Below the pieces are notes generated by a model that was given only the letters and a program-made list of their open reading frames with translations, had not been told where the DNA came from and did no database searches. Positions 49,099 to 53,738 of a DNA stretch of 64,000 nucleotides are shown here, one piece after another. Position numbers and translations under genes: made by a program. Source of the DNA: Nonomuraea indica (GTDB lineage Bacteria; Actinomycetota; Actinomycetes; Streptosporangiales; Streptosporangiaceae); assembly GCF_002850745.1 (NCBI RefSeq), contig NZ_KZ559469.1, positions 435,846 through 499,845 of the forward strand, read 5' to 3'. The first letter of the stretch is position 1, and every line of letters begins with the position of its first letter.

Positions 49099-49173
49099 TC
49101 ACCCGGTGACAGCGGTGCCCACGAGACGGGCCAGGCCGGTGCCGCGGATGCCGCAGTAGCCGTTCGGGTTCAT
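49099..49173 (-). pseudogene. Fragment of the 3' end of an msrA gene
   Basis: Twenty-four codons read [12 protein letters not shown] near the N-terminal end, matching residues 200-211 of the intact MsrA at 53067 ([12 protein letters not shown]). At DNA level 49136-49171 equals 53107-53142 at 35 of 36 positions, on the same strand. The fragment keeps an open frame about 25 codons further upstream with unrelated sequence (KIRCSLACHRML) and ends at a different stop. It is either a decayed second msrA or an integration-site duplicate. Confidence 0.5.
49136..49171 (-). repeat. 36-bp direct repeat, left copy (possible att site)
   Basis: Identical to 53107-53142 except one base (49146 versus 53117), same orientation, no similarity beyond the edges. 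The two copies bracket about 3.9 kb containing the AAA/TOPRIM pair and transposase debris. Confidence 0.75.
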
Positions 49174-49294
49174 CTCACAGCCGTCCAGCTTGGACAGCAT
49201 CCGGTGGCAGGCGAGGGAACAGCGGATCTTCTCGGCCAGCGATCCGCCGGCCCTTCTTCACGGTCGCGGGTCTCGACGGACTGAGGCGTTGGAA

Positions 49295-49480
49295 TCACCG
49301 AACACAGCCTGATCGCCCCACCGCGTTGCGCGTCTCCATCGGCAAGCGCACGATCTTGTACTGCATGCGGGCGAAGAACGTGTCTGAGAAGACCAGCACG
49401 TCCAAGTTGTCCTGAGGGTCACTGAGAAGCCGCAGCCACAGCTCGCGGGGCACGCTGGCGCGGTCAGGGAAGACCTCCAC
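49295..49480 (-). pseudogene. Fragment of a DUF5919-type regulator gene
   Basis: The frame encodes VFPDRASVPRELWLRLL and DNLDVLVFSDTFF, resembling the start of the DUF5919 region found after an HTH domain in actinobacterial regulators. The HTH part is missing, and after about residue 37 the similarity ends (KIVRLPMETRN). No ribosome site. Treated as a gene remnant. Confidence 0.4.
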
Positions 49481-49908
49481 CAGCTCCTACTGGTCCGCCT
49501 CCCTCGGCGCGCCTGGCTGCTTTTCAGCAGTCAGGCCACAGGTACGTCTCGTCAGCGCAGCTTGGCCGCCTCCCGACGCCGGTGGTGCGGGACCCACCTG
49601 CGTTGATCCATAGGGTGGAAGAGACCCAGCTGCGGGTGCTGTTCAAGGGCGAGCTGTTGTCGGTGCACCCGCGCGCCTTCGTCAAGGAGGTCAACCGGCT
49701 GTCGAGCCAGCGGCCATATCGACTACGAGGTCTAGGCACGGTGTAAAGCATCAGCCGATGCCAAACCGTCAAGCATCAACTGAAGGTTGACAGCCCACAT
49801 GCCAACCACTCCTTCACCTTCATGCTGGCAAGCGGACACCGCAACAGACCTACACAATCATGTCGAGCCCGGCGGTGATAGCCCACGCACGGTCCATGAA
49901 GCTCGGAT
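49481..49908. other. Gene-free stretch at the left edge of the low-GC island
   Basis: I see no intact gene. A plus-strand frame around 49615-49735 (VEETQLRVLFKGELLSV, HPRAFVKEVNRLS) looks protein-like, perhaps a transposase or integrase piece, but has no start and soon stops. From about 49740 base composition falls and stays lower to about 52010. The segment 49737-49800 contains GTAAAGCATCAGCCGATGC, a weak hairpin, which may mark the junction. Confidence 0.4.
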
Positions 49909-50547
49909 TCAGCCACCAAGCTGGGCAGCCGCTTCGTCTACGCTCGCTAACAGGGCAATCCATCCGTTCAGCTTGGTTACGTCCCCATTGCAATCCAAGC
50001 GGTCAAGCAACTGCCTTCTGTGCTGCGGGAATCTTTTCGCAACACTCTCACGACGACGACCGTTCACGTCAGCCGCTCTCAGAATGCACTCGCGTAGGCA
50101 TGACTTAGGGTCAGCTAGCGTCTCAACTTCATGCGTTTTCGGGAGCCCAAGCTTCACACGCCCACGAGGATTCCCTGCGACATGTCTAATCGCCTGCTCG
50201 TCAAGGAGAAGCCAAGCCTCGGTCATTCGTATAGGAATAATCGGAACGCATGTACTAGAGAAGCCAGACCGTCGAATAGCATCGTCTATCTCAGCACGGC
50301 GCGCACCCATGCCGGCATTGTCTGCATCTCTATGCACTACAAAAACGTCTGGCTCCGCACCGCCCATGAGTTTAATCGCTGCCTCGACGCGAGAATTGAC
50401 ATCCTTACTCACTTTTCCCAGGCGATCAAAATCCGGAGCACTCAGCCTCAGGGCGATTCCTCGAGCCGCAAAGAGGGACTCAACAATCCCGGCCAAGGGC
50501 GCATCCGAGCTGCCCTCGGCAATAAAGACTCCCGAAAATACACCCAC
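49909..50547 (-). CDS. TOPRIM-type protein (DUF4276-like), putative defence nuclease subunit
   Basis: A 212-residue protein. The TOPRIM signature is E11 in IAEGSSD and D74/D76 in VVHRDADN, with a third acidic patch at TEAWLL. These residues would bind Mg2+ for nucleic-acid cleavage. The length and EAWLL motif suit the DUF4276/RloB-like group found next to AAA ATPases in abortive-infection systems (AbiL, PARIS-like). GTG 50547 starts one base after the ATPase stop, so the pair is co-translated. Base composition is lower in GC than the flanks, suggesting recent acquisition. Confidence 0.75.
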   Translation of the reverse strand: MGVFSGVFIAEGSSDAPLAGIVESLFAARGIALRLSAPDFDRLGKVSKDVNSRVEAAIKLMGGAEPDVFVVHRDADNAGMGARRAEIDDAIRRSGFSSTCVPIIPIRMTEAWLLLDEQAIRHVAGNPRGRVKLGLPKTHEVETLADPKSCLRECILRAADVNGRRRESVAKRFPQHRRQLLDRLDCNGDVTKLNGWIALLASVDEAAAQLGG

Positions 50548-51976: not shown

Positions 51977-52148
51977 GTCATCAGACTAGCGGGCTTCCCG
52001 AAAAAAGCGAAGCATGAAGCTAAACTGCCCTCATGCCCTATAGCCTGAGACCAGGGCCGAAGCGTTCTCGACTGGTGAGCGCCTGCGGGCATGACGCGGC
52101 TGCGTGATTGAGGGCACCCCGGGATGCGAATGACAATCGCGACCCCCG

Positions 52149-52927
52149 ATGTCTACGCCAGTCGATCAAGAGCAGGGCCGCATTCGCGTGCCATCATCCC
52201 CGATCGACGTGCTCGCCCGCCACCCGGAGCACGTCACCGCTGTCAGCCTGCCCGCCGACCTGCTCGACCTGCCGACCCCTGGCCAGGGCCCTGGACGCGG
52301 TCTGGACCTGTCGGACCTGGTGATCACGGCTGACGCCCTGCGCACTCAGCATGCCCACGCCCACCAGATCGCCGCCGCCGATGGCCACTACCTGTTCATC
52401 GTCAAAGGCAACCAGCCCACGCTCCTGCGCCGTCTCAAGGCCCTGCCCTTGGCGAGAAGCGATCCTCAACGACCGTACCGACGAGCAACGGCACGGCCGA
52501 CGCGAGATCCGCCGCATGAAGATCTGCACCGTCCGTCGCACCTGCCCTTCCCGCATGCCACCCAGGCGATCCAGGCAAACGCCGCCGCACCGACTACCGC
52601 ACCGGCAAGACCACCATCATCACGATCTACGCCATCACCAGCCTCCCACCAGGCCGGATCACCCACGCCCAGCTCGCCGCACTGATACGCGGCCACCGGA
52701 GCATCGAAGCCCTGCACCACATCCGCGACGTCACCTACCGCGAGGACACCTCACACATTCGCACCGGCACCGCACCCCGCATCATTGCCGGCCTCCGCAA
52801 CCTCGCCATCGGCCTGGCCCGCCTGATCGGCTGGACCAACATCGGCGCCGCCACCGACCACTACGCAGCCATCCTGAGGACGGCCTTCAGCTACTCGGGT
52901 TCACCAGCTGAGAACGCTTCACCCTGA
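52149..52927 (+). pseudogene. Decayed ISAs1-family transposase
   Basis: Three frames each carry part of one transposase. Frame one has SSPIDVLARHPEHV and, after an internal deletion, LVITADALRTQHAHAHQ and HYLFIVKGNQPTLL. Frame two continues REAILNDRTDEQRHGRREIR. Frame three, about 52615 to the TGA at 52925-52927, has [34 protein letters not shown] and [20 protein letters not shown]. At least two frameshifts and the loss of the first catalytic region make it non-functional. I could not identify terminal inverted repeats. It lies inside the 36-bp direct repeats. Confidence 0.8.
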
Positions 52928-53066
52928 GCCTGAGACGAGGCCAGCGCAACTGTAGCTTCGCATGCTCGGTCAGATGCCACATGTTTAGCTGCAACCCGCG
53001 TCAATGAATATGGCGGCGGCTAGCCGACTCTAGGCTGCCCAGCTACGGCCTCCCCAAGGTCTACGC

Positions 53067-53738
53067 CTACGCCTCCCCGGGCGTCAGGCCCACCGGGCAG
53101 GCGACCCCGGTGCCGCCGATGCCGCAGTAGCCGTTCGGGTTCTTGAACAGGTACTGCTGGTGGTACTCCTCCGCGTAGTGGAAGGGGCCCGCCGGGGCGA
53201 GTTCGGTGGTGATGGCGCCGTGGCCGGCCGCCGTGAGGACCCGCTGGTAGGCGTCGCGGGACGCCTCTGCCGCCTTCTGCTGCTCCGGGGAGTGGTAGTA
53301 GACGGCCGAGCGGTACTGGGTGCCGACGTCGTTGCCCTGGCGCATGCCCTGGGTGGGGTCGTGGGCCTCCCAGAAGACCTTCAGGAGCTCCTCGTAGGAG
53401 ATCCTGGCCGGGTCGTAGACGACCCTGACGGCCTCGGTGTGGCCGGTGCGGCCGCTGCAGACCTCCTCGTACGTGGGGTTGGGCGTGTAGCCGCCCTGGT
53501 AGCCGACCGCGGTGCTGACGACTCCGGGGGTCTGCCAGAACGTGCGCTCGGCGCCCCAGAAACAGCCCAGGCCGAAGTCGGCGATCTCGGTGCCGGCGGG
53601 GTACGGCGGGGCGAGGGGGGCGTCGAGGACGGCGTGCCGGGCGGGCACGGGCATGGTCTCGTCGCGGCCGGGAAGGGCCTCCTCGGGCCGGACCATCGTC
53701 GCCCTGTCGCCGAAACCGCTGCCGAACAGCCAGCTCAT
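53067..53738 (-). CDS. msrA: Peptide-methionine (S)-S-oxide reductase MsrA
   Basis: A 223-residue MsrA. The catalytic Cys is C59 in LGCFWGAER; recycling cysteines C205 and C214 lie in the C-terminal [18 protein letters not shown]. It reduces Met-S-sulfoxide in proteins with thioredoxin. The start ATG 53738 (MSWLFGSG) is chosen over one 9 codons upstream. Codons 199-210 carry the 36-bp sequence repeated at 49136-49171, so this gene's 3' end may be an integration site. It is divergent from rarD. Confidence 0.93.
53107..53142 (-). repeat. 36-bp direct repeat, right copy, inside msrA
   Basis: See the copy at 49136-49171; one mismatch in 36. Here it codes for the conserved [12 protein letters not shown] region of MsrA, so this copy is under protein-level selection and the left copy is the displaced or supplied one. 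Confidence 0.75.

Follow-up and report, generated by a model that had tools for sequence, protein, structure and literature searches.

The 3′ end of msrA as a probable attachment site of serine integrases and small cassettes in Nonomuraea and related actinomycetes

Why does a genome with an intact msrA gene carry a second, stranded copy of the 3′ end of this gene further downstream? The question is raised by a 64-kb stretch of Nonomuraea indica DNA (below, the window: positions 435846–499845 of contig 4 of the 8.29-Mb genome, denoted G000), in which two copies of a 36-bp direct repeat derived from msrA enclose a small genomic island. Comparison with related genomes makes it very likely that large serine integrases of one family use the msrA 3′ end as their attachment site, and that elements and non-autonomous cassettes insert there, each bringing a new gene end. 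The features of the window that bear on the site are the following.

53067..53765, minus strand: intact msrA, the target gene (TIGR00401, E 5.5e-68; PMSR of Pfam)
53067..53165, minus strand: last 99 bp of msrA including the stop codon, the stretch repeated in relatives (from the edges of the pieces in relatives)
53155..53162, minus strand: CACCAGCA, 8 bp, the putative crossover (from the alignment of fragments with intact msrA)
53107..53142, minus strand: right copy of the 36-bp repeat, within msrA (repeat comparison)
49117..49171, minus strand: left copy, a stranded and shortened fragment of the msrA 3′ end without the crossover point (profile positions 22–80, E 1.5e-8)

The preliminary description of the locus had noted two copies, 49136–49171 and 53107–53142, sharing 35 of 36 bases on the same strand, and direct comparison bears this out. 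It had placed the right copy inside an intact msrA and taken the left one for a stranded 3′ end of the gene. The TIGR00401 match agrees with the former, and the latter is upheld by the profile of msrA 3′ ends, which yields two significant matches in the window, 53165–53068 (E 1.7e-26) and 49173–49115, the third-ranked match having E 1.3. Its claim that there is no similarity outside the copies is not fully accurate on the left side, where the repeat search of the window extends the pair to 55 nt (49117–49171 and 53088–53142, 85% identity). Chance origin of the repeat is ruled out: a 36-nt probe of the left copy shifted by one base (49135–49170) has only two copies in the window at up to 3 mismatches, the number expected from 100 shuffles being 0.00. 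The interval is indeed of low GC content, as described, with values down to 0.55 in 1-kb segments compared to about 0.70 around it.

Displaced msrA ends and the attachment site

We compared 54 genomes of the Nonomuraea group, that of the window included. The last 234 bp of msrA used as a probe produced matches in at least 51 of them, and many genomes combine an intact gene with pieces that break off at probe position 99. Of 71 short pieces in the first 40 loci, 51 have their edge exactly there and only two reach further into the gene; the identity of the pieces to the msrA end of the window is 73–95%. The profile survey was based on 49 genomes, the window's genome being excluded along with G003, G017, G018 and G064, in which no complete genus-type msrA was found. 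Since the surveyed loci did not exceed 20 kb, with one to three loci per genome, the fragment counts are lower bounds. Extra msrA 3′ ends, 82 in all, are present in 37 of the 49 genomes, and 58 of them begin within 3 positions of one and the same edge, 99 bp from the gene end. Of these extra ends, 55 are on one locus together with msrA, and all 55 are situated downstream of it on the same strand; the other 27 are on loci without msrA. A single genome may have up to five or more displaced ends, separated by different cargo. In 47 surveyed genomes msrA is continuous from its body to its end; the exceptions are G060, where the body matches only to residue 184, and G028, which lacks a genus-type msrA.

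The expected outcome of an insertion is visible in two filled/unfilled pairs. The sequence after the fragment in G074 follows the intact msrA in G007 (82.6% identity over 321 bp, starting 8 bp after the end), and a second pair is formed by G005 and G031 (87.6% over 387 bp). The preliminary description had suggested that integration took place in the 3′ part of msrA and restored the end of the gene; this is supported by these pairs, by the displaced 99-bp ends and by the adjoining integrase described below. The same description had proposed to look in relatives for an empty site and for different cargo at msrA. Different cargo is found at the same point in other genomes; the empty site exists in the relatives forming the two pairs, and none corresponds to the window's own flanks.

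The alignment of 50 clean-edged fragments with 29 intact msrA genes shows how the site is organized. A half site common to the fragments, approximately gAAtTgtTGCg.GAaG.GAAgcGC, adjoins the edge on its left and is absent from intact msrA. When the upstream regions of the 50 fragments are dereplicated to 20 types, the mean information is 0.92 bit at positions −24 to −1 and 0.07 bit at positions −60 to −25. This half is similar at the 9 sites beside integrases and at the 41 other sites, and among all surveyed fragments it is present in 56 of 82. At the window's left msrA copy it was not detected by the profile search of the window. At the third base past the edge, 96% of the 50 fragments have C and 66% of the 29 intact copies have T; hence the switch lies to the right of this base. 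The next eight positions, CACCAGCA, do not vary among the 29 intact copies, which are all those of the 40 loci, and their conservation in the fragments is 94% or more; the crossover may be placed within them, that is, at 53155–53162 of the window. The 36-bp repeat is ruled out as the core of the attachment (att) site, as both the breakpoint at 53165 and the putative crossover are outside it. By the same reasoning, the last 99 bp of msrA in the window (53067..53165) would be the contribution of the last inserted element.

In G060 (C47:90633–91990, loci L215 and L221) a second, more distant msrA (44%) is seen next to the gene on the other strand, and the gene may be interrupted at the hot spot. 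In G028 (L214, 7817–7906) a displaced msrA end is accompanied by a 114-aa open reading frame (ORF), and a like ORF follows msrA in G009 and G022; this was not used as a filled/unfilled pair because of the missing genus-type msrA in G028. In G071 a reversed msrA end (L079, 11399–11497) near a ParE copy and a second integrase piece has the appearance of an inversion inside the array.

The integrase and the small cassettes

The protein that adjoins msrA ends has 502 aa and contains the Recombinase domain PF07508. Its close copies (at least 82% identity) are present in nine of the 54 genomes, full length in G027, G032, G066, G069, G071 and G073, incomplete in G005, broken in G020 and reduced to a piece in G026. 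In all nine the gene is located directly beside an msrA end, 39–61 bp from the match. This constant association suggests that the integrase catalyses recombination at the msrA site. In the window's genome the best relative is one of only 29%, on contig 30, which fits the earlier suggestion that the integrase was either lost or provided in trans. The bounded msrA elements with an integrase are about 7.5–10 kb long, and the listed loci, as judged by eye, have one serine recombinase gene per element. RepSA, an initiator of the pSAM2 type, is encoded approximately 0.7–3 kb from the integrase end in at least seven genomes (G020, G026, G032, G066, G069, G071, G073). The FtsK-type domain PF01580 occurs in all nine genomes with the integrase, and none of the matches listed falls inside an msrA element, the elements of G027 and G071 overrunning contig ends.

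The only solved structure found by sequence is that of the integrase 9iu2 (E 2.3e-6). Two integrases scanned with NCBIfam had no match to a Ccr model, the sole match being XisF, far below the cut-off. A tyrosine integrase acting in trans was considered as well and dropped once the serine integrase had been found beside the edge; PF00589 is present in 54 of 54 genomes, and the IntI subtype away from the site was not sought.

The association is not restricted to the Nonomuraea group. In named genomes, which partly overlap with the surveyed Nonomuraea genomes, 48 integrase loci were considered; in 22 of them according to tblastn, and in 23 according to the profile, no more than 300 bp separates an msrA end from the start of the integrase. 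The integrases adjoining msrA come from ten genera: Nonomuraea, Planobispora, Streptosporangium, Microbispora, Herbidospora, Microtetraspora, Actinomadura, Streptantibioticus, Actinacidiphila and Streptomyces. Four short rows, one of them at msrA, were dropped from the integrase tree, leaving 44 rows, 22 of them with the msrA label. On this tree the label needs one change, compared to a mean of 15.1 for shuffled labels, and none of 500 shuffles is as low. The plasmid records contain one 65% relative (in a Nonomuraea gerenzanensis record of 11.85 Mb) and otherwise only relatives below 60%; in the phage records all relatives are below 60%. A change of target within the family is seen in two relatives of about 65% identity, L095 (G064), which by eye lies in an aldo/keto reductase gene, and L096 (G012), which lies in some other gene.

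The intervals between msrA ends vary from 0.3 to 12.8 kb, and the units between the copies are usually devoid of a recombinase. Many hold toxin–antitoxin modules: by Pfam, ParE with a Phd-type partner (the Phd match being just under the cut-off), PIN toxins and Gp49-type toxins, and also a helix-turn-helix (HTH)-IrrE gene with a weak DUF3368 partner. The PIN-toxin gene of a unit of 800–831 bp was also matched by eye between msrA ends of Microbispora amethystogenes.

Measured from crossover to crossover, the ParE/Phd unit is 1,014–1,018 bp long in eight of the 11 arrays examined (G011, G013, G014, G016, G025, G033, G074, G076); in four of these eight it adjoins msrA, and in the other four it is located deeper in the array. 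The intervals that contain the ParE gene in G068 and G075 are longer, and the one in G071 is open on one side. The module follows msrA itself in G011, G013, G014, G024 and G074; in G010, G016, G025, G033, G068, G075 and G076 it comes after a displaced end. The att sites are kept on both sides, and there is room only for the two genes, with no integrase or transfer genes.

This unit has spread between species, as seen from comparison with the neighbouring core gene. The body of the unit is 98.3% identical between G011 and G025, whereas the core gene beside msrA is 83.9% identical; for G013 and G016 the respective values are 97.3% and 85.1%. Along the G011–G025 alignment, the identity per 40 bp is 0.10–0.47 before the inner edge and mostly 0.93–1.00 inside the unit, with 0.82–0.88 in places near the ends. 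Beyond the unit it is 0.75–0.85 over the next msrA end and then 0.25–0.47, so that the similarity collapses at both crossover points. The ParE/Phd copy of G070, 770 kb from msrA, matches the genes only and not the ends.

We propose the following scheme. The element would carry an attachment site next to the integrase start, the left half being the conserved 24 bp and the right half duplicating the final 99 bp of msrA. A crossover within CACCAGCA would join the element's own msrA end to the host gene, which keeps coding, and the old end would be displaced downstream as a stranded fragment; the end of the host msrA would thus be replaced at each insertion. As the new junction would again be msrA-like, the site could be reused and elements could stack. 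The small units, about 0.7–3 kb, often with one toxin–antitoxin pair, without a recombinase and bounded by the same halves, would move as single cassettes, most likely mobilised in trans by the integrase of another element, and the toxin–antitoxin genes may help them to persist as a kind of “glue”.

Known systems with similar features

Does the msrA site belong to a known type? Chromosomal integrons are arrays of small one-operon cassettes, many of them toxin–antitoxin ones, beside a fixed end, with no recombinase inside the cassette. The msrA arrays likewise consist of small recombinase-less cassettes, many with toxin–antitoxin genes, next to a fixed end. However, the msrA site uses a PF07508 serine recombinase and not the tyrosine recombinase IntI, the repeated site is the msrA end and not attI/attC, and no integron platform was seen in the msrA loci read.

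Composite islands and recombinase-less pseudo-SCC elements are known for the staphylococcal cassette chromosome (SCC). According to PMC6222049, SCC and the enterococcal cassette chromosome (ECC) depend on large serine recombinases (CcrAB) acting at the 3′ region of rlmH, have att repeats of about 50 nt in ECC and carry highly variable cargo; tandem ECCs with several ccrAB have not been directly observed according to the same paper. The msrA elements are similar in having a large serine recombinase (PF07508), a target gene that is kept whole (the msrA ORFs are intact), att sites as direct repeats and variable cargo. On the other hand, their target is msrA rather than rlmH, they have one integrase rather than the CcrA and CcrB pair, and they contain the 99-bp coding end, RepSA beside the integrase and cassettes of about 1 kb.

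The cis-mobilizable elements (CIMEs), described at the sites of integrative and conjugative (ICE) and integrative and mobilizable (IME) elements, are segments without integration and transfer genes between att sites at the end of a target gene; they undergo tandem accretion and, in PMC5704250, are presented as decay products of larger elements. The msrA units resemble them in tandem accretion and in retaining att sites without integrase and transfer genes, but the ParE/Phd unit recurs at a constant size and spreads alone. Most of the actinomycete integrative and conjugative elements (AICEs) described in PMC3218068 have a tyrosine integrase and a tRNA gene as the target, and some AICEs have serine recombinases and are inserted in protein genes. 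The combination of an integrase with a RepSA-type initiator is shared with the pSAM2-type AICEs, while the FtsK-type translocase is missing from the msrA elements among the matches listed.

The closest known kinds are SCC at rlmH, accretion of CIMEs, and integrons, and a cassette-capture interpretation would go beyond them. Under this interpretation, actinomycetes would have serine-integrase cassette capture unrelated to integrons, in which single toxin–antitoxin or defence cassettes, each with a new msrA 3′ end, are inserted one by one and exchanged across species and genera by integrases acting in trans; we judge the chances of this to be even. A survey has identified thousands of serine recombinases with their target genes (PMC10083194). 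The word msrA is absent from the main texts of PMC3218068, PMC10083194 and PMC5704250, although supplementary tables could still list it, and the open-licence full-text literature, supplements being outside the search, yielded no report of msrA as a serine-integrase insertion site.

A region of difference that recurs in a large group of antibiotic producers among the actinomycetes is explained by the msrA site. Scanning the sequence downstream of msrA for 99-bp msrA ends becomes a rule for finding mobile toxin–antitoxin and defence cassettes. There is also now a tree of serine integrases whose natural attachment sites are predicted, and a system where integron-like capture by a directional serine integrase can be directly tested.

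Alternative explanations and the island in the window

Several observations weigh against the msrA end being the attachment site of the integrase family. Out of the 37 genomes with fragments, 28 have no close integrase, so action in trans, or past action of an integrase since lost, has to be assumed. Integrases of about 65% identity sit in other genes, and the branch that has the msrA-flanked integrases on one side is not firm, with a support of only 66/83. No left half is detectable in 26 of the 82 fragments, which means that several units are degenerate. A G071 contig without msrA has three ends, two oriented one way and one the opposite way, and a displaced end of G065 (C84:448574–448647, positions 22–95) is 343 kb from msrA on the same contig. 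Over all 28 genome pairs the mean identity of the ParE cassette is 0.909, only little above that of the core gene, 0.873, and in seven pairs the cassette is less similar than the core gene (for instance, 0.892 versus 0.958 for G076 and G033). The 99-bp end of the ParE units has identity 0.842 between genomes, only modestly above 0.783 with the other ends of its own array, which leaves room for homologous exchange in this stretch. Finally, the crossover point is missing from the left copy in the window, and a search of the relatives for an exact empty site that would match the left boundary, at the window's outer junction, gave none.

Homologous recombination between msrA 3′ ends might by itself insert and reshuffle downstream segments, the fragments being left over from single crossovers between stretches with about 100 bp of homology. 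The short pieces are similar enough to the msrA end to pair, the signs of exchange in the 99-bp end point the same way, and most genomes with arrays now have no close integrase. Against it stand the edge, which in 58 of 82 fragments is no more than 3 positions away from a common point, the conserved half site outside the msrA homology, the integrase abutting the edge in nine cases of nine and the constant size of the ParE/Phd unit. We consider it an unlikely explanation of the arrays as a whole, while some homologous exchange inside the 99-bp end is probable as well. Less probable still is that the left copy is the last remnant of a decayed, duplicated msrA paralogue. It is, to be sure, a 3′-end fragment of msrA; however, the fragments of the relatives recur as the last 99 bp, with only two of 71 short pieces extending further, there are up to five or more of them in a genome with differing cargo in the intervals, and no second complete genus-type msrA occurs at the site in any of the 47 surveyed genomes whose msrA is continuous with its end. 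Hence this candidate was rejected, and insertion at an attachment site in msrA is retained as the best explanation of the displaced ends.

How the island in the window was formed is a separate question, for which its other features are needed.

46864..47102, minus strand: truncated remnant of an element-borne gene (85–86% identity to G026 and G069, 78% to G032)
49172..49610, minus strand: decayed HTH/DUF5919-type gene, broken at the msrA fragment (73–79% DNA identity to G026, G009 and G025)
49909..50547, minus strand: TOPRIM/DUF4276-like partner, HEC-01B-like, of a candidate defence pair (PADLOC HEC-01B, E 1.8e-20)
50549..51976, minus strand: AAA ATPase, HEC-01A-like, of the candidate defence pair (PADLOC HEC-01A, E 3.4e-102; PF13304)
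52059..52920, no strand assigned: insertion sequence (IS) remnant with 20-bp terminal inverted repeats (52059–52078 and 52901–52920, 90% complementary) and a broken transposase

The left msrA copy is fused at 49171/49172 to the middle of the HTH/DUF5919-type gene, and the homology of the latter begins at 49172–49174 in G026 and G009, immediately at the edge of the copy (49171). The domain matches of this gene are weak and under the cut-off. Homologues of 251 aa reside inside the msrA elements of G069 and G025, and thus at least one msrA element probably stood in the window. The remnant at 46864–47102 has homologues that adjoin msrA or its displaced end in G026, G032 and G069; it marks an older insertion outside the reported interval, on its left side, and the hot spot reaches further in this direction. 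The flank at 45.2–46.8 kb is syntenic in G013, where it is about 17.5 kb from msrA, and the other matches of the window flank, among those listed, resemble cargo.

An AAA/TOPRIM pair and a decayed transposase between the copies had been reported earlier, and both are recognized here: the pair, a candidate defence system, matches the PADLOC models of HEC-01, which have no score cut-off, and the transposase belongs to the IS remnant with inverted repeats of its own. Occurrence of the pair elsewhere without an msrA repeat had been named as evidence against an island at msrA. This is partly the case, as the nearest relatives, in G003 and G014 (91–92%), occupy another locus, where the surrounding 1.5 kb or so is free of msrA ends; it follows that the window's cargo is not specific to the site, and no more than that.

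These relatives are among the reasons to consider that the interval is a layered assembly of a stranded msrA end with an AAA/TOPRIM pair and an IS that arrived separately, the copies never having bounded one such element. The inverted repeats of the IS, the lack of the crossover point in the left copy and the older remnant further left point in this direction, whereas the HTH/DUF5919-type gene fused to the left copy is msrA cargo in G069 and G025. We regard this assembly as possible and somewhat doubtful. Most likely, the island is a decayed, layered member of the msrA hot spot. It would then comprise an old end from which the crossover has been deleted, a part of an element-borne HTH gene, the HEC-01-like pair, the IS remnant, and msrA with the latest end.

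The IS remnant matches at the DNA level (84.6%) positions 12876–13404 of L043, the 3′ part of a 409-aa ORF; this ORF (12892–14121) is within the array at msrA in G005, and the remnant, judged by eye, has an internal deletion. The relatives of the AAA/TOPRIM pair in G003 (L024) and G014 (L025) apparently share one common locus, seen by eye near a 192-aa GTP-binding protein.

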